From Opitutales bacterium (GTDB lineage Bacteria > Verrucomicrobiota > Verrucomicrobiia > Opitutales > Oceanipulchritudinaceae), in NCBI GenBank assembly GCA_020831525.1, contig JAFIGH010000040.1:1-41139 (forward strand): 41,139 nucleotides of DNA, in the 5' to 3' direction. Position 1 is the stretch's first letter; every line of letters begins with the position of its first letter. Positions 982-25,463 of the stretch are shown here, one piece after another. Below the pieces are notes generated by a model that did not search any database, was not told the DNA's origin, and saw only the letters and a list, made by a program, of their open reading frames with translations. A program made the position numbers and the translations under genes.

Positions 982-1707
982 TCAGGTGAAGGCGATTTTC
1001 AATGTGGCCACCACGAGCACGACGGCGAGCGCGCGGCGGATCTGATGCGGGTGCGCCAAACCGCTGCCCCAGCGCGCCCCAATATACCCGCCGAGAAGCA
1101 CGGCCGGAGCAAGGACCATCCAGAGCATAGGCAAGGATTCCACAGCCCCGGAATGGCCGAGTAACCCGGCGGCGGAGTTGACGAAGATAAAGGGAGCGGA
1201 GACCGCCGCGGCCACCTTGGGACGGGCCCAGCCGAAAAAGAGCAGCAAGGGCGTGAGGAAGATTCCGCCGCCGACTCCGATCAACCCGGAGACAAACCCC
1301 ATCAGCGAACCGGTGACCGCGATTATCCAGAACGACGGTTTCTTTTCCCCGCCCGGCGCAGCCGCGGGCATGCACAGGCGAACGGCTGAAAAAGCCAGCA
1401 CCACGGCAACAAGGGCGTGAAACCAACCGGGATCGACGTTTAGCCGCCCGCCCGCAAAGGCAAACGGGATCGAGACAAGCGCGAAGGGCCAGAAGAGACC
1501 GGGACGAAAGTAGCCCGCCCTCCCGAAAGCCACCAAGGCCAGCATAGATACAACCATGTTAAGGCATAGCGCGGTGGGCTTCATCACTTCCGGAGCCATG
1601 CCCGCCAAAGTCATCACGGCGAGGTAGCCTGAGGCACCGCCATGCCCGACCGATGCATACAGGGCGGCGATGAGTGCCATGGGCAAGAGGATCCAGTAGA
1701 TTTCCAT
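982..1707 (-). CDS. TauE/SafE-family sulfite exporter-like permease
   Basis: A 241-residue, almost wholly hydrophobic protein with the duplicated architecture of the TauE/SafE family, whose characterised members export sulfite, sulfoacetate or other small organic anions across the inner membrane. Family-like glycine-rich stretches are visible: SVGHGGASGYLAV in the first half and SGLIGVGGGIFLTPLLL in the second, followed by a short C-terminal hydrophobic segment. A good ribosome binding site (AGGAG, about five bases before the ATG) supports the start. The gene follows the molybdopterin oxidoreductase on the same strand after a 336-base gap, so it could remove a sulfur oxyanion made by that complex. 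That link is inference; no substrate can be read from the sequence. Confidence 0.85.
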   Translation of the reverse strand: MEIYWILLPMALIAALYASVGHGGASGYLAVMTLAGMAPEVMKPTALCLNMVVSMLALVAFGRAGYFRPGLFWPFALVSIPFAFAGGRLNVDPGWFHALVAVVLAFSAVRLCMPAAAPGGEKKPSFWIIAVTGSLMGFVSGLIGVGGGIFLTPLLLFFGWARPKVAAAVSAPFIFVNSAAGLLGHSGAVESLPMLWMVLAPAVLLGGYIGARWGSGLAHPHQIRRALAVVLVVATLKIAFT

Positions 1708-2043: not shown

Positions 2044-5000
2044 TCAGCCCACCCGCTCCAACCGCACACGTGTGTCGTAGAAGACCACGCTCGCGCCGAT
2101 GGGATCGGAGAGCGCGGTGTTCTTGAGGAAGGGGTCGACGCGCATGACCGCATTGGCATTGATGCCGCGCCCGCGGCGGCGGTCGCCCCGGAGGGTGTCG
2201 CCGTCGACCCGCATGTCGACAGCGCCGTTGCCCCATTGACCAAAACCGAGCGAGAAGGTCACGACACCGGGGCGCATGCCCTCGACGACCTTGATCCTGC
2301 CGCTCACCGGACGTTTGCCGAGTCCGCCGAGGTCCCAGACCCCGTCCGGATTCGTAGCGCTCTTGATAATGACCTCGTCGCCGGTCTTGAACCCCGAATC
2401 CTGCGCCGTGATCCGGTTCATGAGAATCGCATTCTCCGGCACAACGGCGAGGAGCCAGTAAGCCGAATTGGTGCGGGTTTTTGTCTGCACGCTCTGCCGA
2501 TAGGTGCTGAGGAACAGCGGATACTCGCTTTCGGTATCGGGAAGCTCGCGTCCGAGGCAATCGAGGACCGGATAGTGGCGCGGGATGCCGTCGTATCGTT
2601 TTCCGGTCATGCTGTTGCGGGAGCGCGCGGTCTTTTCGCAGTAGAGGTTGATGAGCCGGGCGTAGGCGTTGGTGAGCTGCTCCCCCCGGTAGGTGTCGGG
2701 GTAGTCCTGGAAACGCCCTCCGCGGTTGAGCACATAGACTACCTTTTTCCACCAGTCTTCCCCCACCGCTTTCCGCCAACGGGATTCCTCGAACGTGTGC
2801 GCCGCGATGTGGCGGCGGGAACGGTTGAGGAGATCTACCTCGCGGGCGTCGGCGTCGGGCACGGGCGCGCCATCGGCGGCCACGTTGGCAACCATTTTCA
2901 AATAGAAGTGATCGGGATGCGTGAAGGGCATGCCGTTGCCGAAACCGTCGGGGCCGAATCCGCTCAGTTCCATCTTCTCCGCCATGGCCATCATCATCGA
3001 CTCAAGACTCATGGACATCTCCTCGCCGAAGACTGTGCAGGTATCGACCAGCGGAGTGACGACCGGAGTGCGCACCGGCTGGACCTTCTGCGAGACCGAT
3101 CCGTGCGAGCCATGAAATTCCCAGCGCTCGTAAAAGGTGCCGTCGGGAAAGATGTAGTCGGCGTAGGCCGAAGTCGCTCCGATGGTGATGTCGTTGGCGA
3201 TGAAAAGCGGAATCTTTGCCGTATCGGTGAGGATGTCGTTGAGTTCGTTGCCCGACGGCAGGGAGTAGTTGGGAGCGCCCATGTAGAGAATGAGCGCCTT
3301 GATGGAATACGGATACGCGTCACCCGCCGAGGGAATCACTTCCTGGAAAATACTGTCGGCGATGGGATACCACGGCCGCTTCGAGGGATAGCCGTCGAAA
3401 AGCGTTGATTTCTCGTAGTCGGCCCGGTCGCGGATGATCGACACGCCAAAGGGACCGAGCCTGCCCGGATGCATATCGTTCACCGGAAACGGCTGGCCGC
3501 GGCCCGTACCGGTGGCGTTGTAGGTGGAAGACTCGATCATGCCTCCCTTCCAGCCGATGTTACCGATGAGCAGGTTCAGGCTCATCCACGCCGCCACAGC
3601 GAGGTATCCGTTGGTGTGCTGGGAGACGCCCCGGTGGATGTCCGCCGCGGCTTTCTTTCCGTGGCTGGTGAACTCGCGCGCAAGATCGGTGATGTCGCGC
3701 ACGCGGATGCCGCAGATCTCCGCCCATCCGGAGAGGCTGTGCTCGCAGGCGGACTCGTAGAGCAGTTGCATACTGCTCTTCACGGGGATGCCGCCGATTG
3801 TTGTGTCGACGAGAAGATCGCCCACGACCGGCTCAGCGGTGTCATTGGGATCGACGGCGCCGATCCGGCCGTCGCGGAGGACGACAAAGCGGTCCGTGTC
3901 ACCTTCGGGGCGGTCCGCTTCCGGAAGATCGGCCACGCGCAGGAAATCACCCGGCCCGTCTTCGCCGATCTTCACCAGCCAGCTCGAACCGCTCCAGTTG
4001 GGCTCGCCGATGGCATCGGCAGCGGCCTTGTTGGCGGCGGAGAGGTAGGCCTTGTCATAGCGTTCGTTTTCAATGATCCACCGGATCATGGCGAGGGCGA
4101 GGCCGGTTTCGCTGCCGGGCGTAGCCGGCACCCATCTCCAGGCCATGCCGCCGAGCTTGCCCATACGCGGATCAACCACAGCAAACTTAAAGCGGCGCTC
4201 CGTCAGTCCGTTGGTGATTTTCGGTGTGCGCAGGGGCGGGCCATAGCCGCCCTCAAACGCGTTCGAACCCGCGAAGATCACGAAGTCGGTGTTCCTCAGG
4301 TCGGCCTGCCAGTAGAACTTGCGCCCGCCCGTCCATTGTCCGTTCACGTATTGCTCGCTCATCGCGCGGCAGGCGAAATACAGGGAGCCCTGGCACACCG
4401 TGGTGTGGCCGATACGGTTGACCGTGCCGAAGGCATTGCTGATGAAGCGCTGCACAAACTGGCTGCGGCCCGCTTTCATGCGGCCCCAGTTGAAGACCAG
4501 TTGGTTGTTCTTCGGCCCGAGGTCGGGATGGTCGGGATCGATAAGCTTGTCGAGGTGCGCCCGGTGCGCGCGTTTGAACTCCGCCACGGTCATCTCTCCG
4601 TTCGCCACCATGGCGGCGTCGGCCCGCAGGCGCGCCATGACCGCCGGATCGCGCAGAGCGCAGATGTCCGACAAACCCTCCACCTCGCGCGACTCCTCGC
4701 CGGGAACGTCGGCGAAAAGCCGTCCGCCCTCGACCACCTCGGAGATCGCCTGCTCAAAGGAAATGCTCTCCCACTTACCCTCCCCGCGCTTGCCGACGCG
4801 CTTGAGAACCTTGCGGATACGGTAGGGATCATACAAGGTCTGGATACCCGCCTGGCCCTTTGGACAAATGGCGCCGTCCAGTTTGGCAATTTCCGCTTCC
4901 GCCGGGCTGTGCGCGTAACGGATGTGCGGAGTCATCGTCCACGGGCTGTAGGGATTGCCGTCCACCTTGATCATCACACCGTCCACGATCTTCGCCTTGA

Positions 5001-5226
5001 TTCCGCAACCCGTGTTGCAGTTCATGCAGGTCGTATAGACGATATTCTCCGCTTTCGACAGCTCGTAGAACTCCTCGGGGGACAACGCGCCGGATTCCGC
5101 GCGGGCGGAGAGATCTTCCGCCCTCCGGCAAGCCGTGGCGAGCGCAGCGCAGCCACCGACAAGTGCGCTGGTCTTGAGAAATTGTCTGCGGGAAAGGCCG
5201 GAAGGCTTCGCGTGCGTATCGTTCAT
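2044..5226 (-). CDS. Tat-exported molybdopterin oxidoreductase catalytic subunit (TtrA/PsrA-like)
   Basis: A 1060-residue member of the DMSO-reductase superfamily. It begins with a twin-arginine signal (SRRQFLK, residues 12-18) followed by a hydrophobic stretch, so it is exported folded to the periplasm. A [4Fe-4S] site follows: C67, C70, C74 and C121 (CMNCNTGC and CPKGQAG). The likely molybdenum ligand is C278, in HTTVCQGS. The C-terminal third has the molybdopterin-dinucleotide-binding fold, including the motif TGDEVIIK. A ribosome binding site (GAGGAAA) about five to seven bases before the ATG supports the start. Length, exported location and partner genes match the tetrathionate/polysulfide/thiosulfate reductase branch. 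TtrA is the closest by size and by the glycine-rich C-terminal stretch, but thiosulfate, polysulfide or arsenate as substrate cannot be excluded. Confidence 0.88.
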
Positions 5227-5284
5227 GATGTTTCCTCGATTGCGGTTGGGATGGGATGGGATAGGCAGGGTTTCGCAAGACCTC

Positions 5285-6487
5285 TCAGTGGTGCTCCCTC
5301 AGGTAGGGTTCCACGATGTAGCGGTAGCCCACGGTAAAGACGAGGAGCGAGATGCCGACGGCGAAGACAACGACCTGCCACTCCATGAACATGGGGGTGT
5401 AGTCAAAGGTCAGCTTTGAGTGATAGAATGCATCCTTGATGCCCTCCATCGTCGGCATAGGATAGGCGAGGCCCGGAATGATTATATTTACCGGCACCAT
5501 GGTGAAACCGACCAGGTAGCATACCGACGCCGTGCCGATAGCCCAGAGCCGGGTGCGCCAGATCGAGAGGAGTACCAGCGGCACGAGCACGCCAATGCCA
5601 AGGTGGACGATCCAGATGGTCCACCAGTAGGGACCGAAGAGCACGAGCTTGAGGCCTTCCGCATAAGCCGGCACATTGGGGTAAGCGATGACGAGTCCGT
5701 TCGCCAGCGAGGCGATCATACCGATGACAATCGCACCGAGAAAGACACGGGCCATCTGGATTGCGGTCGTCTCATACTGCGGCGTGCCCCGCGTGGGCGA
5801 GAAAAGCAGATGCAAAAGCGTGAGGAGCCCGAGACCCGCCACAAGGGAAGCGATAAAGAACATCAAGGGCAGGACAGACGCGTTCCAGAAAGGCCGGGCC
5901 GCCACCACCCCGAAGAGACCGCCGATCACCGCGATGAGGAGCACACCGATAGGAATGCTGATGTAAGTGAGAAAATTGAGGTAGATCTTCCAGCGGTCGA
6001 CATACACCTTGCCGCGGAAATAGGCGAACAGTTCTGCCGTGAGAATACCGAGGTAGAGCGTGTGCAACCATATCATCCACGACATGAGCGAACCGAAGTT
6101 GGGTTGCAAATACGCCTTCCAGAACCGGAAGGGATGCCCGAGATCCATCCCGATGACAAAGAGCGCGCCGAGCAGAGCGCTGATCGCCGCGAGCATAGCC
6201 ACCGGAGCGAGGAGCCGCAGTCCCTCGATGCGCAGGAAACGGCGCAGGAGAAAGTAGGTCAGGATCATGCCCACCTCCAGCCAGACGAGAAACACATACA
6301 CCCCCACCCAAAGCCCCCACGGGACATAGCTGGTGAGGGCACCGTGCTCTTTGAAGACGAGCACCCGAAAGACACCGTAGGCCCCGAAGATCAGGGCGAT
6401 GACGGCAAGGGTTAAAGAAACCCGGTAATCGAGTGTGCGGTTCAGCCGGGGCGCGGGAACGGCGGTTGCGGTTGCGGTGGATGCCAT
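5285..6487 (-). CDS. NrfD/PsrC-family quinone-interacting membrane subunit
   Basis: A 400-residue polytopic protein with around nine or ten hydrophobic helices. It has the features of NrfD/PsrC/TtrC subunits, which exchange electrons between the quinone pool and a periplasmic Fe-S/molybdopterin enzyme. Early helices include SLTLAVIALIFGAYGVF and WLEVGMILTYFLL. A DLGHPFRFW motif follows (residues 116-124); it is conserved in this family near the quinone site. The gene sits between the Fe-S and catalytic subunits with 58-base gaps on each side, in the order regulator, Fe-S, membrane, catalytic. No convincing ribosome binding site is seen. It should anchor the complex and couple it to menaquinol oxidation. 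Confidence 0.9.
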   Translation of the reverse strand: MASTATATAVPAPRLNRTLDYRVSLTLAVIALIFGAYGVFRVLVFKEHGALTSYVPWGLWVGVYVFLVWLEVGMILTYFLLRRFLRIEGLRLLAPVAMLAAISALLGALFVIGMDLGHPFRFWKAYLQPNFGSLMSWMIWLHTLYLGILTAELFAYFRGKVYVDRWKIYLNFLTYISIPIGVLLIAVIGGLFGVVAARPFWNASVLPLMFFIASLVAGLGLLTLLHLLFSPTRGTPQYETTAIQMARVFLGAIVIGMIASLANGLVIAYPNVPAYAEGLKLVLFGPYWWTIWIVHLGIGVLVPLVLLSIWRTRLWAIGTASVCYLVGFTMVPVNIIIPGLAYPMPTMEGIKDAFYHSKLTFDYTPMFMEWQVVVFAVGISLLVFTVGYRYIVEPYLREHH

Positions 6488-6545
6488 GGTTCTAGCGGGT
6501 GAAAAATTTGGTTTCGGGGTGGAGCGGATCGAAAGTCTGCCGGTC

Positions 6546-7544
6546 TCAGATCAGGTAAAAGACCCGCGGGCGGGTGCCCATCTCCTCCTTGAGGCGGATC
6601 TTGTTCCCTCGGCTGATCAATTCGGCGACGAGGCTGTCCGGGTCGTTGGCGTCGCCGAAATAGGTGGCGTAGCCAATGCAGCTCGTCACACACGACGGCA
6701 GCATGCCCGCGTCGAGCTTGTGCGTACAGAAATGGCACTTGCGCACGTTGCCGGTCGGCGATCTGCCCTTCTGTTGTTTCCAGCGTTTGCCGTATTCGAA
6801 ACTCGGCACCTTCTCGTAGGGTTGATCCGGCTCGGGCGTGCCTTCCGTGTAGCTGTACCCAAAATCGAAAGTGCGCGCATGGTAGGGGCATGCCGTCATG
6901 CAATAGCGGCAGCCGATACACTGGTCGTAGTCCATGTCGATGATGCCGTCCGGGCGGATCCATGTCGCATGCACCGGACAAACCGGAACGCAGGGCGCCG
7001 TCTCGCACTGCATGCAGGGCCGCGGCGTGGAGCGCAAGGACACATTGGGATAGGTGCCGATCTCCTCCTCCATCACGGGACGGTACACGACACCACCCGG
7101 CAGGTGGTTCTCCGCGATACACGAGATCGTGCAGGCATTGCAACCCGTGCATTTGCGCAGATCGATCACCATCACCCATTTGCGCTGCTCGATCGGTTTG
7201 CGCATGGCCTTGCGAAGCTCCCGCTGCATGCGGATGATTATGTTCGCCGCTTCGTCCTCCTCGAACTCCGGGCCGTCTTTCAGGAAGCCCGCTCCGGATT
7301 CTTCCGTGCGCCCGTCCGCCACCGCCTCCAATCCGGCCCGCACAAGCGAAGGCAGCGCCACCGCGCTCAACCCCACCATCGACGCCACCTGAGCGAGAAA
7401 GCGTTTTCGCCCCATCGGCTTTTCACCCGCCGCGCAACCGCGTTCCGTGCAGGAGGCAGGGGCTTGTTCCGGTTCCGGTGGTGCCTCTTCGACCGGAGTT
7501 CTTCCAGTGGCTTCGACGGGGTCGGGGGTCGCAGTGGTTTTCAT
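6546..7544 (-). CDS. four-cluster ferredoxin subunit (TtrB/PsrB-like) with internal Tat-like segment
   Basis: A 332-residue electron-transfer subunit. Four cysteine groups of the DMSO-reductase Fe-S subunit type are visible: [35 protein letters not shown] and the split group CHFC...CVTSC. They predict four [4Fe-4S] clusters. Residues 44-70 look like a Tat signal, but with RKRFLA (Lys-Arg) rather than Arg-Arg. Salmonella TtrB is a known natural example of a Lys-Arg Tat signal. Residues 1-43 form a Pro/Glu-rich extension. An ATG at 7415 would remove it and leave a normal signal peptide, and neither start has a clear ribosome binding site. It lies 14 bases after the Rrf2 gene, so the two are almost certainly co-transcribed. 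Confidence 0.88.
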
Positions 7545-7558
7545 GATAACAGTCCAGC

Positions 7559-8035
7559 TTATGGGTTGGAAATTGTCTTCGCGTTCGCTTCGCGGCAGGT
7601 TCCGGTGCTCTCGCTACCGCCTTGGTCTCCACGTTCCGCCGCGATTAAACCGGCCAACGAGATTCGCTTCAGTTCGCTCCGGATACGCTCGCGCTCCGCT
7701 TGCCAGAAGGAACGGCACGGACATTGCCGGCTGCCGTCACAAAACCCGTCGCCCAGAAGGCAATCGGGCAAAAAATCCTTTCCCTCAACCGCCTCGGCGA
7801 TGTCCAGCAACGAGACGGCTTCCGCGGGACGCGAAAGTCGGGTGCCGCCCGTCCGCCCCCGCTTCGCTTCCAGCACGCCGCCGTCGGCCAGCTTCTTGAA
7901 GACTTTCGGCAGGTAGGCCGCCGGAACCCCGCTGCATGCCGCGATGTCCCGCGTGTAGTGCGTCCGGCAATCCTGTCCCTCCATGCAGACCAGTGCCCGC
8001 AAGGCATACCCCACACTCTGGGACAAGGAGAACAT
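7559..8035 (-). CDS. Rrf2-family Fe-S transcriptional regulator
   Basis: A 158-residue protein with an N-terminal winged helix ([17 protein letters not shown], then [26 protein letters not shown]) and the Rrf2 glycine-rich wing [11 protein letters not shown]92, C99 and C105 (spacing 6 and 5) match the cluster-ligating cysteines of IscR, NsrR and RsrR, with C107 extra. This predicts an Fe-S-sensing repressor or activator responding to oxygen, NO or redox state. The start is set at the ATG at 8035, because GAGGTG at 8044-8049 lies eight bases upstream. An in-frame GTG at 8044 would fall inside that ribosome binding site. It is the first gene of the oxidoreductase operon and probably controls it through the dyad at 8057-8100. 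Confidence 0.9.
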
Positions 8036-8056
8036 TGCGCCCACACCTCAATCCAA

Positions 8057-8100
8057 ATAGGATCGGTATGTCCACTATAAATTCGACCTATCTGTCCTAT
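8057..8100 (-). promoter_or_regulatory. 44-bp dyad, candidate Rrf2 operator and operon promoter
   Basis: An imperfect palindrome directly upstream of the Rrf2 ribosome binding site. Outer arms ATAGGA (8057-8062) and TCCTAT (8095-8100), and inner arms TATGTC (8067-8072) and GACCTA (8085-8090), share the same centre at 8078.5. Comparing half-sites base by base gives 15 matches of 22. The inner part on the minus strand (ATAGGTC, AT-rich centre, GACATAC) has the layout of IscR type 1 sites. A TATAGT near the centre could serve as the -10 element, so protein binding would block or position RNA polymerase. Binding is inference. Confidence 0.55.
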
Positions 8101-8190
8101 TTAATGCCACCTAATGCCCGCTATAAGAGAACGGAACCGCTTCACCATCTACCGGTACTGAGTTTTTCGTGCGCGGAGCGGGAAGGCGCT

Positions 8191-8865
8191 CTACTGCATG
8201 GAGCGCTTAGTGCGGTCGGTGTGGCGGATGTCTTCGCCCTCGACAAGGTAGATGGTCTCGACGGCGATATTGGTGGCGTGGTCGCCGATGCGCTCGATGG
8301 ACTTGGAGATGAAGATGAGTTCGATGTAGGCGGGTGCTTTGGCGGGCTCGGCACCGATGCGTGCGATGTAGTCGGCGTAGTTGGCGCGGTGGATTTCGTC
8401 GACCTCTTTGTCGCCGCGCGGGATGGCGGACGCCCGCGCGGAATCGCCCTGCACGAGGCAGTCAATGGACTCGCGGATGAGGGCGAGGGCCGGTTCGCCG
8501 ATCCGGCGGATGCCGCCCAGGTCGACGTCCGCCTCCTGGCGGCACAGGCGGAGCACCCGCTTGGCGATGCTCGACGCCTCGTCGCCGATGCGCTCCAACT
8601 CGTGGCTCGCTTTGAGAGCGACGGTCACCAGACGCATGTCGCCGGCAACCGGCGCGCGCAGACTGATGTAGCGGTTGGCGGCGGCGTCGATCTCGACCTC
8701 AAGCTTGTCGAGGACGTCATCGTCCTCGCGCACGCGTCGTGCGGCATCGGCATCGCGGTCGTAGAGCGAGCGGAGAACGTTCTCCACGGAGACGGCGGCA
8801 AGTTCGGCCATTTGCACGATCTTTGTGCGCAGTTCGTCGAGTTCGGATTGGAAAAAGCGGGCCAT
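8191..8865 (-). CDS. phoU: phosphate signalling protein PhoU
   Basis: A 224-residue, all-helical protein with the duplicated PhoU fold. Family-like residues are seen in both halves: ASHELERIGDEASSIAKRVL and SKSIERIGDHATNIAVETIY, each with the E-x-x-R-x-x-D-x-x-x-N/S pattern that binds metal clusters. PhoU sits in the cytoplasm and links the occupancy of the Pst transporter to the sensor kinase PhoR, so that the Pho regulon is silenced when phosphate is plentiful. It is the last gene of the pst cluster, 135 bases after pstB on the same strand, which is its usual place. No phoR/phoB pair is present in the window. Confidence 0.95.
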   Translation of the reverse strand: MARFFQSELDELRTKIVQMAELAAVSVENVLRSLYDRDADAARRVREDDDVLDKLEVEIDAAANRYISLRAPVAGDMRLVTVALKASHELERIGDEASSIAKRVLRLCRQEADVDLGGIRRIGEPALALIRESIDCLVQGDSARASAIPRGDKEVDEIHRANYADYIARIGAEPAKAPAYIELIFISKSIERIGDHATNIAVETIYLVEGEDIRHTDRTKRSMQ

Positions 8866-9000
8866 GATATGGATAGTTGGTGGTGAATTGGTGGGAGCGG
8901 CGGAGCGTAGGCCGAAGCTTTAGCGAGGCATGGATGCGGTTGGTTGGTGGAGTGGTTTTCCGTTCCCTGTTCTCCGGCCTCCGATTTCTGACCTCCAGCC

Positions 9001-9834
9001 TCAGCCGAAGCGGCCGGAGACATACGCCTCGGTCTGCGGGTTTTGGGGTTTCATAAAGACGTCCTCGGTGCCGTTGTATTCGATGAGCTTGCCGAGGTAG
9101 AAGAAGGCGGTGCGGTCGGAGACGCGGGCGGCCTGCTGCATGTTGTGCGTGACGATGACGATGGTGTATTCCTTCTTCAGCTCGTGGATGAGGTCCTCGA
9201 TCTTGCCGGTGGCGATGGGATCGAGGGCGGAGCAGGGCTCGTCCATTAGAAGGATCTCGGGGCGGTTGGCGATGGCGCGGGCGATACACAGGCGCTGCAT
9301 TTGACCCCCGGAAAGCCCGAAAGCGCTCTCTTTCAGCCGGTCCTTCACTTCGTCCCATAGGGCCGCGCCGCGCAGGCTGCGCTCCACCACTTCATCGAGT
9401 TCGGAGCGCTTGCTGCGGCCTGCCACGCGCAGGCTGTAGACGATGTTCTCGTAGATCGACTTGGGGAAGGGGTTGGACTTCTGGAAGACCATGCCGATGC
9501 GCTTGCGCAGCGAGATGACTTCGAGGTGCGGGTCGTAGATGGAGTGCCCGTCGATGGTGATATCGCCCTCATGGCGAATGCCGTCGATGAGGTCGTTCAT
9601 CCGGTTGATGTTGCGCAGGAGCGTCGACTTACCGCACCCGGACGGCCCGATGAAGGCGGTGACCTTTTGCTTCGGGATGTCGAGGTTGAGGTCGAAAAGC
9701 ACCTGGACTGTATTGTCGTAAAAGAAGTTGAAGTCCTTCACCCGGATGAAGTCGGGCTGAGGGCTCTCCGTTTCCGGTTCAGCGCCGGCGTCGCCGCCGG
9801 GTTTGAAGGCTTTCTGCTGGAAGGTATGGGCCAT
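9001..9834 (-). CDS. pstB: phosphate ABC transporter ATPase PstB
   Basis: A 277-residue ABC ATPase that powers high-affinity phosphate import at the cytoplasmic face of PstCA. Walker A is GPSGCGKST (63-71), the signature LSGGQ (174-178), Walker B ILLMDEP (194-200) and the switch histidine H230. The PstB-specific stretches RNINRMNDL and [16 protein letters not shown] are present. The first 28 residues are an acidic, low-complexity extension not needed for the fold, so the true start could be internal, but no other Met precedes the ATPase domain. It lies 32 bases after pstA and is probably co-transcribed with it. Confidence 0.96.
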
Positions 9835-9866
9835 GATCGGTTCAGTCGGCGGGTTCTACGAATTCC

Positions 9867-11588
9867 TCAAAACGCCGAGGACATGAGTTTTTTGCGAAGG
9901 TGGTTGCGGATCATGATGGCGCCGAGGTTAAGGACGACGACCAACATGATGAGAACAAGGGTGGAGGCGAAGACAAGCGGCTTGGTCGCCTCGGTGTCGG
10001 GCGACTGCAGGGCCACGATGTAGATGTGGAAACCAAGGTGCATGAACTTGCGGTCGAGGTGGACGAAGGGAAACATGCCGTCGATAGGCAGGCTTGGCGC
10101 CAGCGCCATTACGCCGACGAGCAGAAGCGGGGCGACCTCTCCCGCGCCGCGCGCCATGGCGAGGATCAACCCCGTGAGGATGCCCGGACTCGAAGCCGGA
10201 AGGACAAGGCGCTGGATCGTCTGCCACTTGGAGGCACCGCAGGCGAGCGAGCCCTCGCGCACACCGCGCGAGACGGCGGCGAGCGCTTCTTCGGTCGCCA
10301 CAATGACGACCGGCACCGTCATGAGCGCGAGCGTGAGCGACGCCCAGAGAATGCCGCCGGTACCGAAGACGGGCGTGTTGATCGCCACCATGCGCGGGTA
10401 GAAGACTTGGTCGATAACGGCACCGACTTCGTGGATGAAGAAGCCCAGCCCGAAGACGCCGAAGACAATCGAGGGTACCCCCGCAAGGTTGTTGATGGAG
10501 ATGCGCACCGCGCTCACGAGCGGTCCCTGCTTCGCGTATTCGCGCAGGTAGACGGCGGCGAGGACGCCGAAGGGAGTCACCGCGAGGCTCATGAGGATAG
10601 TCATGACAAACGTGCCGAAGAGCGCGGGAAAGATACCGCCCTCCGTATTGGCCTCGCGCGGATAGTCGGTGAGAAATTCCCAAATCTTGAAAAAGAACCA
10701 CCCTACACGCTGGAAAAGGCCCATTTGATTGGGCAGATAGAAGTTGATGATCTCGCCGAGCGGCTGCACACGCTCGATGCCGCCCACCAGTTCGAAGACG
10801 ATGCTGTGCTCGCTCTGCTGCTGCCGGAGGATCTGACTGCGCAGCTCCAGCGGCTGGAGTTCTTCGCGCAAAGATTCGACGGTGGCGAGGCGGCGCTCCA
10901 GCTCCGCCTCCTGCGCGGGCGTGCGTTCGTCGAGCGATCGCAGGTAGCGGATCTCGAGGCTCTCCCGGTTGAAGCGCGTGTTGATGCGCCCCATCTCGCG
11001 GCGCTCGATACGGTGGATTTCCGACCTCCGTTCGCGGACTTCGTCCACCTTGCGGCGAAGCGTCTCGTCGAACCGCGGATCGTCCGCCGGGACAACCTCG
11101 CCCGTACCGAGGCGCAGTTCAAGCGGGCGCGCGATGGCGTCGCCCCACTCTGTCCGCTCAAGGACCATCAATTCCTCCGGATGGGTGATCCGCTCGATAT
11201 CGCCCATATTGAGAAAGGCGAAGTTCTGCGTCGCAAAGACATCGCGGTTGCCCGTGTAGACCATCATCTCCCGCATGTAGTCGGGATCCTGCCGGGCGAG
11301 GTCGACGAGGTCGGCGTCATCGGGACTTAGGTTCTCGACCGTCAGCGCACGGCGCATGGTGATGACGCCGAACAGCTCATGATCGCCGCGGAAGTCGGTG
11401 CGCCCCGTCTCGGTCAGCTCGATCTGCGCGATGCGTTTGGGCCAGAAGTAGTTGAGCCCGTTCCAGACGATGACCCCGAGCAGAAAGAGGATCATGAAGA
11501 GCCCCATGGCGAGACCCACGCCCGTGACCCAAACCCAGATTTCGCCGACGGGTTTGATGTTTTTTCCAAAAGCCGTTTTCGCTTTCAT
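9867..11588 (-). CDS. pstA: phosphate ABC permease PstA with long periplasmic coiled-coil insert
   Basis: A 573-residue permease, about twice the length of E. coli PstA. The first helix (residues about 17-42) is followed by a periplasmic insert to about residue 290. Residues 172-255 of this insert are rich in Glu, Arg and Leu and likely form a coiled coil. The remaining 280 residues are the normal transmembrane domain, with the ATPase-contacting EAA loop REGSLACGASKWQTIQRLVLP and a final helix near residue 550. Enlarged PstA and PstC occur together in several proteobacteria such as Pseudomonas, so this is a known large form rather than a local fusion. The gene lies 42 bases after pstC. Confidence 0.93.
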   Translation of the reverse strand: MKAKTAFGKNIKPVGEIWVWVTGVGLAMGLFMILFLLGVIVWNGLNYFWPKRIAQIELTETGRTDFRGDHELFGVITMRRALTVENLSPDDADLVDLARQDPDYMREMMVYTGNRDVFATQNFAFLNMGDIERITHPEELMVLERTEWGDAIARPLELRLGTGEVVPADDPRFDETLRRKVDEVRERRSEIHRIERREMGRINTRFNRESLEIRYLRSLDERTPAQEAELERRLATVESLREELQPLELRSQILRQQQSEHSIVFELVGGIERVQPLGEIINFYLPNQMGLFQRVGWFFFKIWEFLTDYPREANTEGGIFPALFGTFVMTILMSLAVTPFGVLAAVYLREYAKQGPLVSAVRISINNLAGVPSIVFGVFGLGFFIHEVGAVIDQVFYPRMVAINTPVFGTGGILWASLTLALMTVPVVIVATEEALAAVSRGVREGSLACGASKWQTIQRLVLPASSPGILTGLILAMARGAGEVAPLLLVGVMALAPSLPIDGMFPFVHLDRKFMHLGFHIYIVALQSPDTEATKPLVFASTLVLIMLVVVLNLGAIMIRNHLRKKLMSSAF

Positions 11589-11630
11589 TGCCGTATTTGC
11601 GGTGGTGATTCTGCGGTGCGGGCGCGTCCC

Positions 11631-13946
11631 TTACTCGACGGCGCGGTAGCGCTTTCGCAGCCACTGCCGTAGGATTTCCGCAAAGGTGTTGAGCGTGAAG
11701 GTGAAGACGAAGAGGATGAAGGCACACAGAAAGAGCGTACGGTAGAGCGTGCCGTCCTGCTCCGCCTCCGAGATTTCCACCGCGATATTGGCGGAGAGCG
11801 TGCGCATGCCGGTGAAAGGATTGAAGTCCTGCACGACGGAATTGCCCGTCGCCATGACCATGATCATCGTCTCGCCGATGGCGCGCCCGAACCCGATCAT
11901 AAGCGCGGAAAAGATACCCGCCGCCGCCGTGGGGAGGACGATACGGATGGCGGTCTGCCAGCGGCTCGCGCCGAGGGCGAGCGAGCCCGAGCGGAAGGAG
12001 TTGGGTACGTTGCTCAGCGAATCCTCGGAAATTGTGAAGATGATGGGGATGACCGCGAAGCCCATGGCAAAGCCGACGACAAGCGCGTTGCGTGTCTCAA
12101 AATCCCAACCGAGCGCCTGCACCACCCACATGCGGAACGATCCCACGTCCCGCGCAAGGACTTCGTCGTACTGCACAAAGAGCCAGCCTTCCACGACCTG
12201 CCCGAACTGCCAACCCAACCATGCGACCAGCATGGCGGGGAAGAAGACGACGACAAATTCCATCCCCGACGGCACGGTAAGGCGGATCGAGTTGGGCAGG
12301 TTGCTCCACACGTATCCCATGAGGACCGCGCCGACGAAGACACCCATACACGCCAGCATGACCGACGGCACGGCATTGCTTATCAGCGGCGAAAGCCACA
12401 TTCCCGCGAAAAACCCGAGAATAACCGACGGCAACGACGCCATGATCTCCATCGTCGGCTTGACCACTTTCTTCAAAGACGGGCGTAGAAACTGCGATAC
12501 GTAGAGGGCGGAGAGCAGGGCAATGGGTACGGCGACGAACATCGCGTAGACCGTGCCCTTCAACGTGCCGATGATGAGCGGTACCATCGACAGCTTTCGC
12601 TCGAAATCGGCTCCGCCGTCGGACTGCCAGTCGTAGATGCGCCCGGGCCGGCCCTCGTACTGAATGCGGGCGAAATAGGCCGTCATCCCGGCGATAGGGT
12701 GTTCGTCGAGCATGTCCTGCACATGGAGATTGTTCGTCTCGTCAAGGAAAAGGAGGGCGTTGTAGCGCGGGGCGATAAGGGCCTGCCGCGGGAGGAAGCC
12801 GAGGTTATCTTCCCACCGGTGTGCCGTCGTGGTCATGAGCGTGAGCCGGGCGTAGTCGCCCGTGGTCGTAAGGAAGGTCTTGTTGCGGCGGCTGGCGGAA
12901 TAGCCTTCGACGCCGCCCGGCAGCGGATCAAACACCTTGCTCGGGATGAATCGGCGTCCGGAAATTTCTTCGAGAAACGCAAGATTCCACGCCACATGGT
13001 CGCCCGCTTGGTTGAAAAAGAGAATCGTCTGGTCACCCAGCACATACTCCATGCGCGCGAAGAGCGGACCGGAAGGATGGTCTTCCATCGGCGTAAATGT
13101 CTGAATGTGCTCCGCCCGCCCTTCCGCACGCACGCGGAAGTAGTCCACCCGTCCGTCGTCGTAGGCCACAACGATGGCATCAGCCGTGTCGGGGATGAGC
13201 AGTTGCACGGGATGTCCGTTTAGTTTCGGCGTAAGGTCCAGCTGCGCGCCGACTTCGAGCGGCCCCACCCCGAAAGGTGTGCGGCGCTGCGTGAGGATGG
13301 CGAGGTTCACATTGCGGGTGCCGTCGACATCCTGATATCCTGCGATCATCCGCACACGTTCTCCCGCCGCGTAGACCGCGCCCTCCACGGGGCGGCCCGA
13401 CGCACCGAGCTGTATGACCGGCAGCGTCTCGATAGACGGCGCGATCATACGCATGTCCCGCCCGAGCGAATAGTCGGGGGCGTAGTCGATACGCTTTACC
13501 AGCACACGACCGTCCGCGGATGTCAGCACCACGCGGTCGCGGAGGATGTCATGCGTCACCTCGTGGACCGCGAAGTCGCCCGGCACGCCGTTGTCGAGCG
13601 TGAATAGACCGCGGTTGTCGTGCCGCTTCGACGGATCATCGAGATCGACGAAGAATACGTCTCCCTCCTCAGTGACAAAGTACGGGACCTCCAGCCACTC
13701 GTCGATCCCAAAGGAAACGACGGGGCGGTCGGGAAGGGGCAGCGTCCGCTTGTCCGCGATCTCGGCGCCGCGGAAAAGCGGGGCCACCTTGAAGGCAATA
13801 AATACAAAAATGAAGAACACCGCCACAATGATGAGGATGCCCCCGACCATGATGAGGCCGGTCATGAATTTGTCGGCCACCAGCGTGGCGGGCGACACCC
13901 GGAATCGCTCCGGGATTTGCGGCAGATTCGGCTTGTTCGCTTTCAT
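11631..13946 (-). CDS. pstC: phosphate ABC permease PstC with large periplasmic domain
   Basis: A 771-residue permease. A first helix near residues 25-50 is followed by a periplasmic region of roughly 400 residues. This region is made of short beta-rich blocks with repeated FF/VDYFRV-like strands and could be a propeller-like domain. The last 310 residues form the transmembrane domain, with the EAA loop SGSLALGASRWQTAIRIVLP and the following GFGRAIGETMIMV. The ATG at 13946 (MKANKPN) is chosen over a TTG 18 bases upstream; neither has a strong ribosome binding site. It follows pstS after an intrinsic terminator, so expression may come partly from read-through. Confidence 0.93.
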   Translation of the reverse strand: MKANKPNLPQIPERFRVSPATLVADKFMTGLIMVGGILIIVAVFFIFVFIAFKVAPLFRGAEIADKRTLPLPDRPVVSFGIDEWLEVPYFVTEEGDVFFVDLDDPSKRHDNRGLFTLDNGVPGDFAVHEVTHDILRDRVVLTSADGRVLVKRIDYAPDYSLGRDMRMIAPSIETLPVIQLGASGRPVEGAVYAAGERVRMIAGYQDVDGTRNVNLAILTQRRTPFGVGPLEVGAQLDLTPKLNGHPVQLLIPDTADAIVVAYDDGRVDYFRVRAEGRAEHIQTFTPMEDHPSGPLFARMEYVLGDQTILFFNQAGDHVAWNLAFLEEISGRRFIPSKVFDPLPGGVEGYSASRRNKTFLTTTGDYARLTLMTTTAHRWEDNLGFLPRQALIAPRYNALLFLDETNNLHVQDMLDEHPIAGMTAYFARIQYEGRPGRIYDWQSDGGADFERKLSMVPLIIGTLKGTVYAMFVAVPIALLSALYVSQFLRPSLKKVVKPTMEIMASLPSVILGFFAGMWLSPLISNAVPSVMLACMGVFVGAVLMGYVWSNLPNSIRLTVPSGMEFVVVFFPAMLVAWLGWQFGQVVEGWLFVQYDEVLARDVGSFRMWVVQALGWDFETRNALVVGFAMGFAVIPIIFTISEDSLSNVPNSFRSGSLALGASRWQTAIRIVLPTAAAGIFSALMIGFGRAIGETMIMVMATGNSVVQDFNPFTGMRTLSANIAVEISEAEQDGTLYRTLFLCAFILFVFTFTLNTFAEILRQWLRKRYRAVE

Positions 13947-13971
13947 CGAAGAGACGGAATACAATCTTTAA

Positions 13972-14020
13972 GAGAAAAAGAGGGATGCCGGCGCGGCACC
14001 GTGACACACACCGGCATCCC
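13972..14020 (-). terminator. intrinsic terminator/attenuator between pstS and pstC
   Basis: Perfect 10-bp inverted arms GGGATGCCGG (13982-13991) and CCGGCATCCC (14011-14020) enclose a 19-base loop. On the minus-strand transcript they are followed directly by CTTTTTCTCT (13980 down to 13971). It lies 40 bases after the pstS stop and 26 bases before the pstC start. Partial termination here would give more binding protein than permease, as is usual for pst operons. Confidence 0.85.
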
Positions 14021-14060
14021 ATGAGAAAGCAACCTATATTTCCGACTGAGTCGGCAATGC

Positions 14061-15014
14061 TTACAGCTTGTTGCGCTGCTGGACGGCGAATTCACCCGGC
14101 AGCGAGAAGAAGCCCGCGCGCTCCACGGCAGCCTGGCCTTCCGCCGAGAGAGCGTAGCGGAGGAACTCCGCTGTTAGGGTGTCGAGATCCTCACCCGGCG
14201 CCTTGTTGATGTAAAGGAAGAGCAGGCGCGAGATCGGATAGTCGCCGGTCGCGGCATTCGCCGGCGAGGGCTCATAGAGGGTGCCGCCTTTTTCCGAGCC
14301 CACCTTGATGGCCCGCGTGCCGGGCGTGAGGTAGCCCACACCCGAGTAGCCGATGCCGAAGCGGTCTTCGCCGACGGCCTGGACGACCGCCGAAGAGCCG
14401 GGCATTTCCTGGTAGCGCTGGCCGTCGAAGTCACCGCCGCCGAGAGCGATGTTGCGGAAAACACCGTACGTGCCGCTCACGGAGTTACGCCCGTAAACGG
14501 AGACGCGGCGACTGTTCCACTCGCCCGAAAGACCGGCGTCGCCCCACGTGCGGATGGGCGAATGCCCGAGGCGGTTGGTGCTCGAGAAGATCGCGTCGAT
14601 CTCGGGCAGGCTCAGACCTTCGACGGGATTGTCGCGGTGCACAAAGACGGCGAGCGCGTCGATACCGATGGCGACCTCCGTCGGCTTGTAGCCATAACGC
14701 GCTTCGAAAGCGTCAATCTCCGCCGGACGAAGGGGACGGCTGGACGGGCCGATCTGCGCGGTGCCGTCGATGAGCGCCGCGGGGGCCGTGCCCGAGCCCG
14801 CGCCCTGGATCTGGATGTTCACGTTCGGGTATTCATTCTGGAACCCTTCGGCGAGGAGCTGAAGCACCACTGTGAGGGTGTTCGAACCGATCGAGTTGAG
14901 GTTTCCGGAGACGCCGGAAACGCGTTCGTAAGACGGGTAGTCGGCGTGCAGGCCGGTGACGGCGGTGGCGCCGAAAGCGGTGGCCACCGCGAGAGTCTTT
15001 ATCGTATTTTTCAT
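14061..15014 (-). CDS. pstS: phosphate-binding protein PstS
   Basis: A 317-residue periplasmic binding protein with a signal peptide (MKNTIKTLAVATAFGATAVTG, cleaved around LHA). Phosphate-contact segments of the PstS family are visible: SIGSNTLTV near residue 41, QIGPSSRPL near 90, and NSVSGTYGVF near residue 175, where the SGT turn binds phosphate. It delivers phosphate to PstCA. It is the second gene after the O/P porin, with 59 bases between them. That gap contains a single GGTTGTGTG half-match to the Pho box (15039-15047) but no complete repeat. Downstream lies a strong terminator. Confidence 0.94.
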   Translation of the reverse strand: MKNTIKTLAVATAFGATAVTGLHADYPSYERVSGVSGNLNSIGSNTLTVVLQLLAEGFQNEYPNVNIQIQGAGSGTAPAALIDGTAQIGPSSRPLRPAEIDAFEARYGYKPTEVAIGIDALAVFVHRDNPVEGLSLPEIDAIFSSTNRLGHSPIRTWGDAGLSGEWNSRRVSVYGRNSVSGTYGVFRNIALGGGDFDGQRYQEMPGSSAVVQAVGEDRFGIGYSGVGYLTPGTRAIKVGSEKGGTLYEPSPANAATGDYPISRLLFLYINKAPGEDLDTLTAEFLRYALSAEGQAAVERAGFFSLPGEFAVQQRNKL

Positions 15015-15073
15015 AGTATTCAGGTGTTGGATATGTGCGGTTGTGTGCTGTGTGAGGATTCGGCGCGCCGCTG

Positions 15074-16276
15074 CTAGAACTGCATGCGCACGCCGGAGAT
15101 GAAGGTCGTGGAGCGGCCGCGGGCGTCCGTGGCATCGCTGTCGTCCTTGCTCCGGGCGCGCTCGATACCGCCCATGAGCTTCAGGTTGTCGCCGTAGATG
15201 TAGTAGTTGAGACCGAGGTAGAAGGCATCGTATTTGTTGCCCGCGCGGTAGAGGCCCGGCACGCGGTCGGCGTAGCGGTTGGAGCCGAGGTTCACGCCGT
15301 CGTCGCCCTTGATGTTTTCGTAGCGGAAGACCGCCTGGAACTGGCCGGGAATGAAGTAGTAGGACGGCATGATGTAGAAGCCGCGGATCTTGTCGCGGTC
15401 GCCCGTTGTCTTGCCCGTCATGTATTCCGCGCGCACATCAAACTCCTGCGCAACAAAGTGGGTACTGAAGGCCCAGGCGTCCTTGAAGCGGTAGTAGCCG
15501 CGGTCCTTGTCGTTGTGCAGGTAATCGAGGCGGAAGCGCAGACGCATGCCGTCGGCCATCATCTCGTCGAGGTTCAGCCCGGCGCTGGCGTTGAGGAGCA
15601 TGCTGTCGACGTTGGACGCCATGCGACCCGTCGAGACCGATGTGGCGTTGAAGACGCCCACATGGTAGGAAAACATGTCCATCGCACCGTTCACGCGCAG
15701 ACCCAGCGGCTTGCCGCCGTTGAAGAGACCTGTCAGGCGCGAGCGCTCCATCGTAATGATGCTTGCCGAAGAGGTGTTTTCCTCGTGGCCGAAACGCGGC
15801 TTGCCCTTGCCGAAGGCGATGTTCGCCTCGGGGTGGGCGGCGTAGGTGAGCATCGCCGAGTCGAGATCCGTGTCGGAGAGGACGTTGGCCTCCACAAGAA
15901 AGCGCCAGTCTTCGTAGATCTTGCCCTGCACGCCGAGGCGCACGCGCCGCAGCTCGAAAGAGCTGTAGTCGCCCGCGCCGCCGCCGACACCACTGTTGCT
16001 GCCGTCCGCGTAGGCGTACTGCCCCTGGATGCGGCCGCGGATTTTCAACTCGCTGATCGTTCCGCGGTTGGGCGTCACGACGACGCGGTCCGGCGCCGGA
16101 GGGCCGGCGTCGCGAGCCATCTGGGTGCGGACCTCGTCGGCCTGCGCCCGCGTGATCGTGCCGTTGGACACAAGAATATCGAGCAGGGCGTCGTTCTGGG
16201 CGTAGGCCCCGGCCCCGAAGAAGAGCGATCCGGCGAGGACCGCGAATTTGCAGAGAGCACGAAGGTTCGTTCTCAT
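15074..16276 (-). CDS. phosphate-selective O/P-type outer-membrane porin
   Basis: A 400-residue porin with a signal peptide ending near AYAQ. A short helical N-terminal segment follows (LLDILVSNGTITRAQADEVRTQM), of the type that often forms a trimeric coiled coil in OprO/OprP relatives. The rest alternates short polar turns and amphipathic strands rich in Tyr, Phe and Arg (for example YSSFELRRVRLGVQGKIYEDW) and ends in an aromatic residue (VRMQF), the outer-membrane insertion signal. Being the first gene of the pst cluster behind a Pho box, it very likely admits phosphate or polyphosphate under starvation. Exact selectivity cannot be read from the sequence. Confidence 0.9.
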   Translation of the reverse strand: MRTNLRALCKFAVLAGSLFFGAGAYAQNDALLDILVSNGTITRAQADEVRTQMARDAGPPAPDRVVVTPNRGTISELKIRGRIQGQYAYADGSNSGVGGGAGDYSSFELRRVRLGVQGKIYEDWRFLVEANVLSDTDLDSAMLTYAAHPEANIAFGKGKPRFGHEENTSSASIITMERSRLTGLFNGGKPLGLRVNGAMDMFSYHVGVFNATSVSTGRMASNVDSMLLNASAGLNLDEMMADGMRLRFRLDYLHNDKDRGYYRFKDAWAFSTHFVAQEFDVRAEYMTGKTTGDRDKIRGFYIMPSYYFIPGQFQAVFRYENIKGDDGVNLGSNRYADRVPGLYRAGNKYDAFYLGLNYYIYGDNLKLMGGIERARSKDDSDATDARGRSTTFISGVRMQF

Positions 16277-25412: not shown

Positions 25413-25428
25413 GCGGGAATTCCCGCTT
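25411..25428 (+). terminator. 18-bp perfect palindrome overlapping the stop codon
   Basis: AAGCGGGAATTCCCGCTT is perfectly self-complementary. It includes two bases of the TAA stop and is followed by TCCCC. It could form a short hairpin that attenuates transcription or shields the start region of the next gene. With no long T-run and no free loop bases, termination would be weak. Confidence 0.35.
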
Positions 25429-25463
25429 TCCCCGACTACGTTGAAACGCCCGATGCCGAGGTG

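Follow-up and report, generated by a model that had tools for sequence, protein, structure and literature searches.

Organization of the operon

This study analyzed a stretch of 41,139 nucleotides from an Opitutales bacterium (contig JAFIGH010000040.1 of assembly GCA_020831525.1; hereafter, the window), the genome of which comprises 5.30 Mb, and focused on a putative molybdenum oxidoreductase operon headed by a gene for an Rrf2-family regulator. On the minus strand, the genes encoding the regulator, an iron-sulfur ferredoxin subunit (B), an NrfD-type membrane subunit (C), and a molybdopterin catalytic subunit (A) follow one another, with a TauE/SafE gene further on. This confirmed the gene order proposed in a first-pass annotation of the sequence, and each product exceeded its Pfam family cut-off (Table 1). 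The gaps between rrf2, B, C, and A are 14, 58, and 58 bp and thus fit a single transcript. The rrf2 reading frame as listed (7559-8044) starts with GTG, and the ATG at 8035 is the more likely start. The sequence supports the assignment of the operon to the periplasmic, quinol-linked reductases of the complex iron-sulfur molybdoenzyme (CISM) type, within the broad TtrA/SrdA group.

Table 1. Features of the reductase operon and its neighbors in the window.
Feature	Position	Strand	Basis and remarks
Catalytic A subunit (Mo-bisPGD)	2044..5226	-	1060 aa; RR Tat signal; PF00384, PF04879, PF01568, PF10518
11-residue signature with Mo-ligand Cys278 in A	4375..4407	-	Aligned to the ArrA region containing the Mo cysteine; diagnostic of the clade
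C subunit, NrfD-type, membrane, quinol-binding	5285..6487	-	PF03916, 89.8 bits
B subunit, electron transfer, four [4Fe-4S] clusters	6546..7544	-	Fer4 families; TtrB model 169 of 416 bits; 16 cluster cysteines
Tat motif of B, R-K-R-F-L-A, Arg-Lys variant	7392..7409	-	Sequence; compared with L022, L024, L101
Rrf2-family regulator, CX6CX5C cysteines	7559..8035	-	PF02082, 94.8 bits (cut-off 30)
Predicted Rrf2 operator GTCGAATTTATAGTGGAC	8070..8087	-	Palindromic pattern; 34 bp before the likely rrf2 ATG
TauE/SafE membrane protein, downstream neighbor	982..1707	-	PF01925, 111 bits; operon membership uncertain
pstS-pstC-pstA-pstB-phoU, immediately upstream	8191..15437	-	Pfam

For comparison, we used the best 80 of 178 related loci (designated by L and a number), among which the closest were those of the Opitutia metagenome-assembled genomes (MAGs) L020, L021, and L022, with identities of 81-86%. 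Few members of the phylum carry the enzyme: it was found in 7 of 387 genomes at a threshold of 1e-60 and in 5 of 384 genomes of the class at 1e-100, the window's genome being included in both counts.

The B subunit contains 16 cluster-type cysteines in addition to Cys32 and Cys37; the 16 indicate four clusters, in agreement with the first-pass annotation. The same annotation had ascribed to this subunit a Lys-Arg signal for twin-arginine translocation (Tat), as in TtrB. The variant motif was indeed present at residues 46-51 (R46-K47-R48-F49-L50, followed by Ala), but relative to the phenylalanine the pair in the twin position is Arg-Lys, the mirror image of the Lys-Arg in the TtrB of the Salmonella-type Hafnia plasmid locus L101 (SSKRQFLQ). 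Arg-Lys also occurs in the B subunits of L022, L024, and L036, and Arg-Met in that of L021. The signal of the catalytic subunit is an ordinary RR (SRRQFLK). In the L020 MAG, the B-subunit gene appears as two adjacent open frames (L020:5536-6693), which would reflect either an in-frame stop or a sequencing error.

The catalytic subunit belongs to a clade separate from TtrA, SrdA, and the archaeal enzymes

Among the curated NCBIfam models, TtrA (NF011567) matched the A subunit best, with 508 bits against a cut-off of 1750, whereas the Hafnia TtrA reached 2075 bits. The scores with the PhsA and ArrA (NF041714) models were 185 and 93.9 bits, the latter against a cut-off of 1600. The subunit is approximately 30% identical to TtrA. 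It retains the N-terminal cluster cysteines C67, C70, C74, and C121, together with C278 at the place of the Mo ligand, as we take the aligned cysteine of the ArrA region to be.

The first tree, built from 85 rows, placed the A subunit in a 51-row clade supported at 100; TtrA (L101 and L103), SrdA (L084), and the Thermoproteus/Metallosphaera pair lay outside. After the addition of four rows, the clade comprised 55 rows and its support was still 100. For both trees, the search was a quick one and SH-aLRT was the sole measure of support; TtrA and a haloarchaeal row formed long branches, and six partial proteins were left out of the first tree. The clade is marked by the signature HTTVCQGS(L/I)Y(F/Y) beside the Mo cysteine, which the A subunit of the window also carries. 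CQGS(L/I)YF was found in 53 of 91 proteins (50 clade rows and 3 partial proteins), and the remaining clade row, L025, reads CQGSLYY. At the same place, SrdA has CGQTSNK, TtrA CGLAYR, and the archaeal enzymes CEIAHHV or CDIAHHV, and the three rows inspected from a sister group of the clade have CEQSHHI. The first-pass annotation had set the subunit in the context of TtrA, PsrA, PhsA, and ArrA. The broad family that it shares with TtrA was upheld, but its clade is a different one, which goes halfway toward the unrelated branch that the annotation had named as contrary evidence.

SrdA grouped with a Campylobacteraceae enzyme, and neither its tree position nor its active-site motif is that of the window. 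As SrdA we took L084:7962-11147, the second catalytic gene of L084. The genome announcement of strain SF-1 places srdBCA on contig BSSF00031 (PMC4319585), L084 is contig BASE01000031, and passages of two further papers place SrdA in the TtrA family (PMC10100899, PMC7331816). These passages describe the family as catalytically versatile, with tetrathionate, selenate, and archaeal arsenate reductases as members. In SF-1, the TtrA-type operon has a tandem partner, another B-C-A operon, the catalytic subunit of which matched the PhsA model best (L084:1432-11147).

The Rrf2 regulator and its predicted operator

The regulator belongs to the Rrf2 family by its PF02082 score and its CX6CX5C cysteines, and it remained below the equivalog cut-offs for NsrR (38.7 of 182 bits), IscR (50.9 of 207.6), and the SUF regulator (68.7 of 110.7). 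The nearest solved structures by sequence were NsrR (4.3e-9) and the Rrf2 regulator 6y45 (1.9e-8), which is presumably RsrR. An RsrR-like redox switch would give expression under reducing conditions.

An 18-bp palindrome, GTCNNNTTTAWANNNGAC, is common to the upstream DNA of the window, L020, and L022. In it, 11 columns are identical and 5 pairs are complementary, which none of 1000 dinucleotide shuffles equaled (2 of 1000 on identity alone). The window contained one exact match, and 100 shuffles of it contained none. The pattern occurred once in each of these three genomes (5.3, 4.6, and 2.5 Mb), directly before rrf2, which points to a local regulator. The L022 copy encloses TATAAT and thereby makes a repressor that hides the promoter plausible. 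A different palindrome was found at L126.

The window's genome contains four Rrf2 genes. Paralogues of the same CLLGxxxC type (L123:5224-5745 and L124:5243-5713) lie beside an apparent pyruvate:ferredoxin oxidoreductase (PFOR) gene, recognized by eye, in the window's genome and in that of L021; in the former, a dihydroorotate dehydrogenase (DHOD)-like gene sits between the two. This neighborhood fits an anaerobic or redox regulon.

The proposal that a cluster-type Rrf2 protein takes the place of a two-component system was supported, and a conserved predicted operator strengthens it. Local Rrf2 control of the operon appears well supported by these sequences, and an iron-sulfur cluster probably serves the protein as its redox sensor.

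Rrf2 genes were found upstream of the operon only in Verrucomicrobiota

Among the nine Verrucomicrobiota clade loci with visible upstream DNA, six carry an rrf2 gene directly upstream (the window, L014, L018, L020, L022, and L173) and three do not (L013, L021, and L172). All six operon-linked copies exceeded the Pfam cut-off, and CX6CX5C is present in five of them. Outside the phylum, none of the 32 clade loci with visible upstream DNA has an upstream Rrf2; these loci comprise 30 of the main set and the Ignavibacteriota loci L178 and L179, and L026 and L045, in which only NrfD is visible, were left out. The Pfam tally of upstream open reading frames (1 of 80 omitted; 25 of 64 families listed) does not show this absence by itself. 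Genes for a phosphonate-binding protein, a kinase, or a response regulator were found upstream in 10 of the 30 outside loci, and L178 and L179 have all three. L019, a Verrucomicrobiota locus with a sister-group enzyme, has kinase and regulator genes instead of Rrf2.

The first-pass annotation had proposed a survey of relatives for the same regulator and had named its absence from homologous operons as contrary evidence; the linkage held in the phylum, in six of nine loci, but was absent from all 32 loci outside it. Predicted Rrf2 control is therefore a Verrucomicrobiota feature, confined to that phylum within the loci searched, and in this phylum Rrf2 seems to have taken over from the switch that usually senses the substrate. 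The Rrf2 protein tree did not resolve whether L014, L018, and the Opitutia operon-linked copies share one recruitment. Among the listed literature matches on Rrf2 together with such reductases or PFOR, the portions available describe no Rrf2-run enzyme of this kind.

Several observations weigh against the proposed Rrf2 control. The Rrf2 of L014 has lost all cluster cysteines; this locus holds two enzyme operon copies in tandem with rrf2 between them, and the other copy has no Rrf2 upstream. L021, at 81% identity, has neither an Rrf2 gene by its operon nor a match to the operator pattern anywhere in its genome. The 18-bp operator was also without a match in L018, L173, L014, and the four paralogue loci, and the L018 site is a 17-bp look-alike, one base shorter. 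Moreover, the three sites in which the operator pattern was counted had also served to define it, so that only its absence elsewhere is independent, and no sigma-70 consensus promoter was found at 7900-8260 of the window.

Arsenate rather than tetrathionate as the probable substrate

The TtrA of Melioribacter roseus lies within the clade, is 52% identical to the A subunit of the window, and has the same 11-residue signature. Upstream of its gene we found acr3, a thioredoxin-like gene, arsC, arsP, arsR, and genes for a phosphonate-binding-like protein, a kinase, a response regulator, and a porin-like protein, in agreement with the published description. In the published work, ttrA transcription was close to negligible in the absence of arsenate and increased dramatically in its presence (PMC5492636).

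Genes of arsenic resistance (ars; Acr3, ArsA, ArsC, ArsD, or ArsM, with ArsP and ArsR excluded) were located near 8 of 50 clade loci (L022, L028, L042, L047, L049, L060, L089, and L096) and near 1 of 27 non-clade loci (L079, an Acr3-like match that is weak). NCBIfam models were applied to ten candidates. The cut-off was exceeded by three Acr3, a single ArsA, and a single ArsM; three ArsC scored below it, at 115-126 of 174.3 bits, as did an ArsD at 85.7 of 90, and one frame of L022 had no match. The other calls rest on hidden Markov models (HMMs) built in this analysis, and the Acr3 of L042 is a 115-aa piece at the locus end. Acr3 was present at 6 of 50 clade loci within 488 kb of flanking DNA, against 0.10 expected from five copies (one a weak partial match) in 23.4 Mb, a background of six genomes that includes that of L022 and uses a threshold different from that of the locus counts. 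No ars gene was found in 20 control stretches (264 kb, nine genomes). L020 carries arsD-arsA-arsC-acr3 approximately 13 kb from the enzyme operon on the same contig, and L021 has ars genes on a different contig from its operon. At E 1e-60, the ArrA model, which gave 1124 bits on SF-1, found no match in ten genomes with the clade enzyme, nor did any control genome match there.

The phosphate-uptake (pst) genes adjoin the clade enzyme in the window, L024, L028, and L172 (where they follow the A-subunit gene and a porin gene in the same orientation), and the sister-group enzyme in L080; the PstC of L028 and L172 was recognized by eye. In the clade, approximately 0.11 such cases were expected from the same six-genome background, in which five genomes have one PstB copy each and the sixth none, and four were seen, the window included, in a post hoc comparison. 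Although the pst genes of the window probably form an operon of their own, they are a recurrent neighbor of this enzyme. As a second, arsenate-specific transporter they were ruled out, as their PstB is the only one found in the genome. The PstA and PstC of the window (9867-13964) have approximately 340 and 480 residues ahead of their sole Pfam match, and L172 has a similarly large PstC-like frame of 836 aa.

A rhodanese gene accompanies the operon in 6 of 27 sister-group loci (L071, L080-L083, and L085), mostly directly downstream, but is missing from all 50 clade loci (p 0.0012). Sulfur chemistry may accordingly be a trait of the sister group. The first-pass annotation had taken the TauE/SafE exporter as a hint of a sulfur oxyanion. 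The gene does lie downstream in the window and also in L022 (63%), but it was not seen in L020 or L021 within the DNA examined; with L078 as the only other case, this clue was set aside as weak. The 336 bp ahead of tauE do not clearly fit the same transcript, and no terminator-like site was found in them.

Arsenate is probably the most economical substrate and our best guess from these neighborhoods. Against it stand the 42 of 50 clade loci without an ars gene in the DNA examined and the comparison of 8 of 50 with 1 of 27, which is not significant (p 0.15). The HMMs built in this analysis likewise found no ars gene in the window, and the arsR-arsD-arsA-arsC-acr3 operon of its genome lies on a different contig. 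In the M. roseus report, only the psr/phsA induction was statistically clear, and the authors favored Psr/Phs as the main arsenate reductase (PMC5492636).

Two further observations concern other frames. A porin-like gene stands directly ahead of the B-subunit gene in L024, L032, L035, L061, L068, L080, L081, L082, L097, L178, and L179, and a Pfam scan of three of these genes gave no match. The window also contains a 2777-aa open frame (25413-33746) with apparent repeated extracellular domains and near-identical DAVTREFSLF repeats at its start.

Proposed mechanism and alternative explanations

We consider it an even call that the operon forms an autoregulated unit for a periplasmic quinol:oxyanion oxidoreductase, its substrate most likely arsenate, with an Rrf2 repressor at the palindrome and redox sensing swapped in. 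In CISM enzymes, electrons travel from quinol oxidized at the NrfD subunit through the clusters of the B subunit to the catalytic subunit. Here they would pass through four B-subunit clusters to the [4Fe-4S] cluster and Mo-bisPGD of A, where arsenate would most likely be reduced in the periplasm. Tat would export both the A and the B subunit, probably jointly by means of the RR signal that A carries. Rrf2 may act as a repressor on the predicted operator and be released upon a change in cluster state, possibly under anoxic or reducing conditions; a similar release has reportedly been proposed for RsrR. In other phyla, control of the same enzyme often lies with a periplasmic protein of the phosphonate-binding-like kind together with a kinase and a response regulator, a set that would sense the substrate, and in Verrucomicrobiota redox sensing appears to replace this substrate sensing.

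That the enzyme instead reduces tetrathionate (or polysulfide or thiosulfate) seems quite improbable. The best curated model, the B-C-A order shared with ttrBCA, the TauE/SafE neighbor, and the rhodanese genes of the sister group speak for it, but rhodanese is missing from the clade, TtrA occupies a long separate branch with CGLAYR in place of CQGSLYF, and the relatives adjoin ars and pst genes. Assigning tetrathionate by name transfer was rejected on score, tree, and motif, and the substrate suggested in the first-pass annotation is probably wrong. The enzyme might also reduce selenate or another oxyanion, or be promiscuous, with the ars and pst neighbors reflecting metalloid-rich habitats. 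SrdA, as inferred here, is approximately 45% identical and in the same broad family, the versatility of which has been described in passages of two reports (PMC10100899, PMC7331816). We regard this explanation as unlikely: SrdA stands outside the clade with the Campylobacteraceae enzyme and its own motif, and no selenium-specific neighbor was noticed, although no model-based search for one was made.

Concerning the regulator, an NO or iron sensor of the NsrR, RirA, or IscR kind, serving mainly a stress response with the operon as one of many targets, is somewhat unlikely. The closest structures and the paralogues beside the apparent PFOR genes are consistent with such a sensor, but the corresponding NsrR, IscR, and SUF-regulator models stayed below their cut-offs, and an operator found once per genome argues for a local regulator.

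Returning to arsenate and local Rrf2 control, the clade may, more tentatively and at somewhat less than even chances, represent a further arsenate-respiring lineage that has HTTVCQGS(L/I)Y as its mark, is distinct from ArrA, TtrA/SrdA, and the archaeal enzymes, occurs in many bacterial phyla, and is governed in Verrucomicrobiota by a cluster-sensing Rrf2 repressor of this one operon. The TtrA/SrdA/alternative-arsenate-reductase type is already known; what is new is this clade, in its arsenic-linked setting, and the exchange of the regulator. If this reading is true, genes in MAGs of many phyla that are tetrathionate-reductase-like by model encode an arsenic-cycling enzyme, and arrA-based surveys of arsenate respiration undercount or miss it. 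The swap also offers a simple contrast that can be tested, with one enzyme controlled through its substrate in some phyla and through redox state in another.

Comparison with known systems

The closest described system is TtrABC of M. roseus (MROS_1074-1076), which resembles the operon of the window in clade, signature, B-C-A order, and identity; M. roseus has the upstream ars genes, the phosphonate-binding-like/kinase/regulator triad, and the porin-like gene, whereas the window has Rrf2 and pst. The Salmonella-type TtrBCA-TtrRS system (Hafnia, L101) shares the subunit set, gene order, RR signal on A, and cysteine ligand, but differs in its low identity, separate branch, TtrRS two-component control, and Lys-Arg rather than Arg-Lys on B. 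SrdBCA of Mesobacillus (Bacillus) selenatarsenatis SF-1, taken to be L084, shares the broad family and B-C-A order and differs in its clade and active-site motif, its upstream kinase and response regulator, and its tandem PhsA-type operon. A link to arsenate has been published for the archaeal TtrA-type reductase PAE1265 of Pyrobaculum. The archaeal branch (Thermoproteus L095 and Metallosphaera L087, assumed to stand for P. aerophilum PAE1265) is of the same broad family but forms a separate branch with CEIAHHVS or CDIAHHVS. RsrR, NsrR, and IscR share with the window's regulator the Rrf2 family and three cluster-region cysteines. The cysteine spacing of IscR and NsrR is CX5CX5C; the window's protein differs in its CX6CX5C spacing, its GTCN12GAC operator with an AT-rich center, and scores below every equivalog cut-off.

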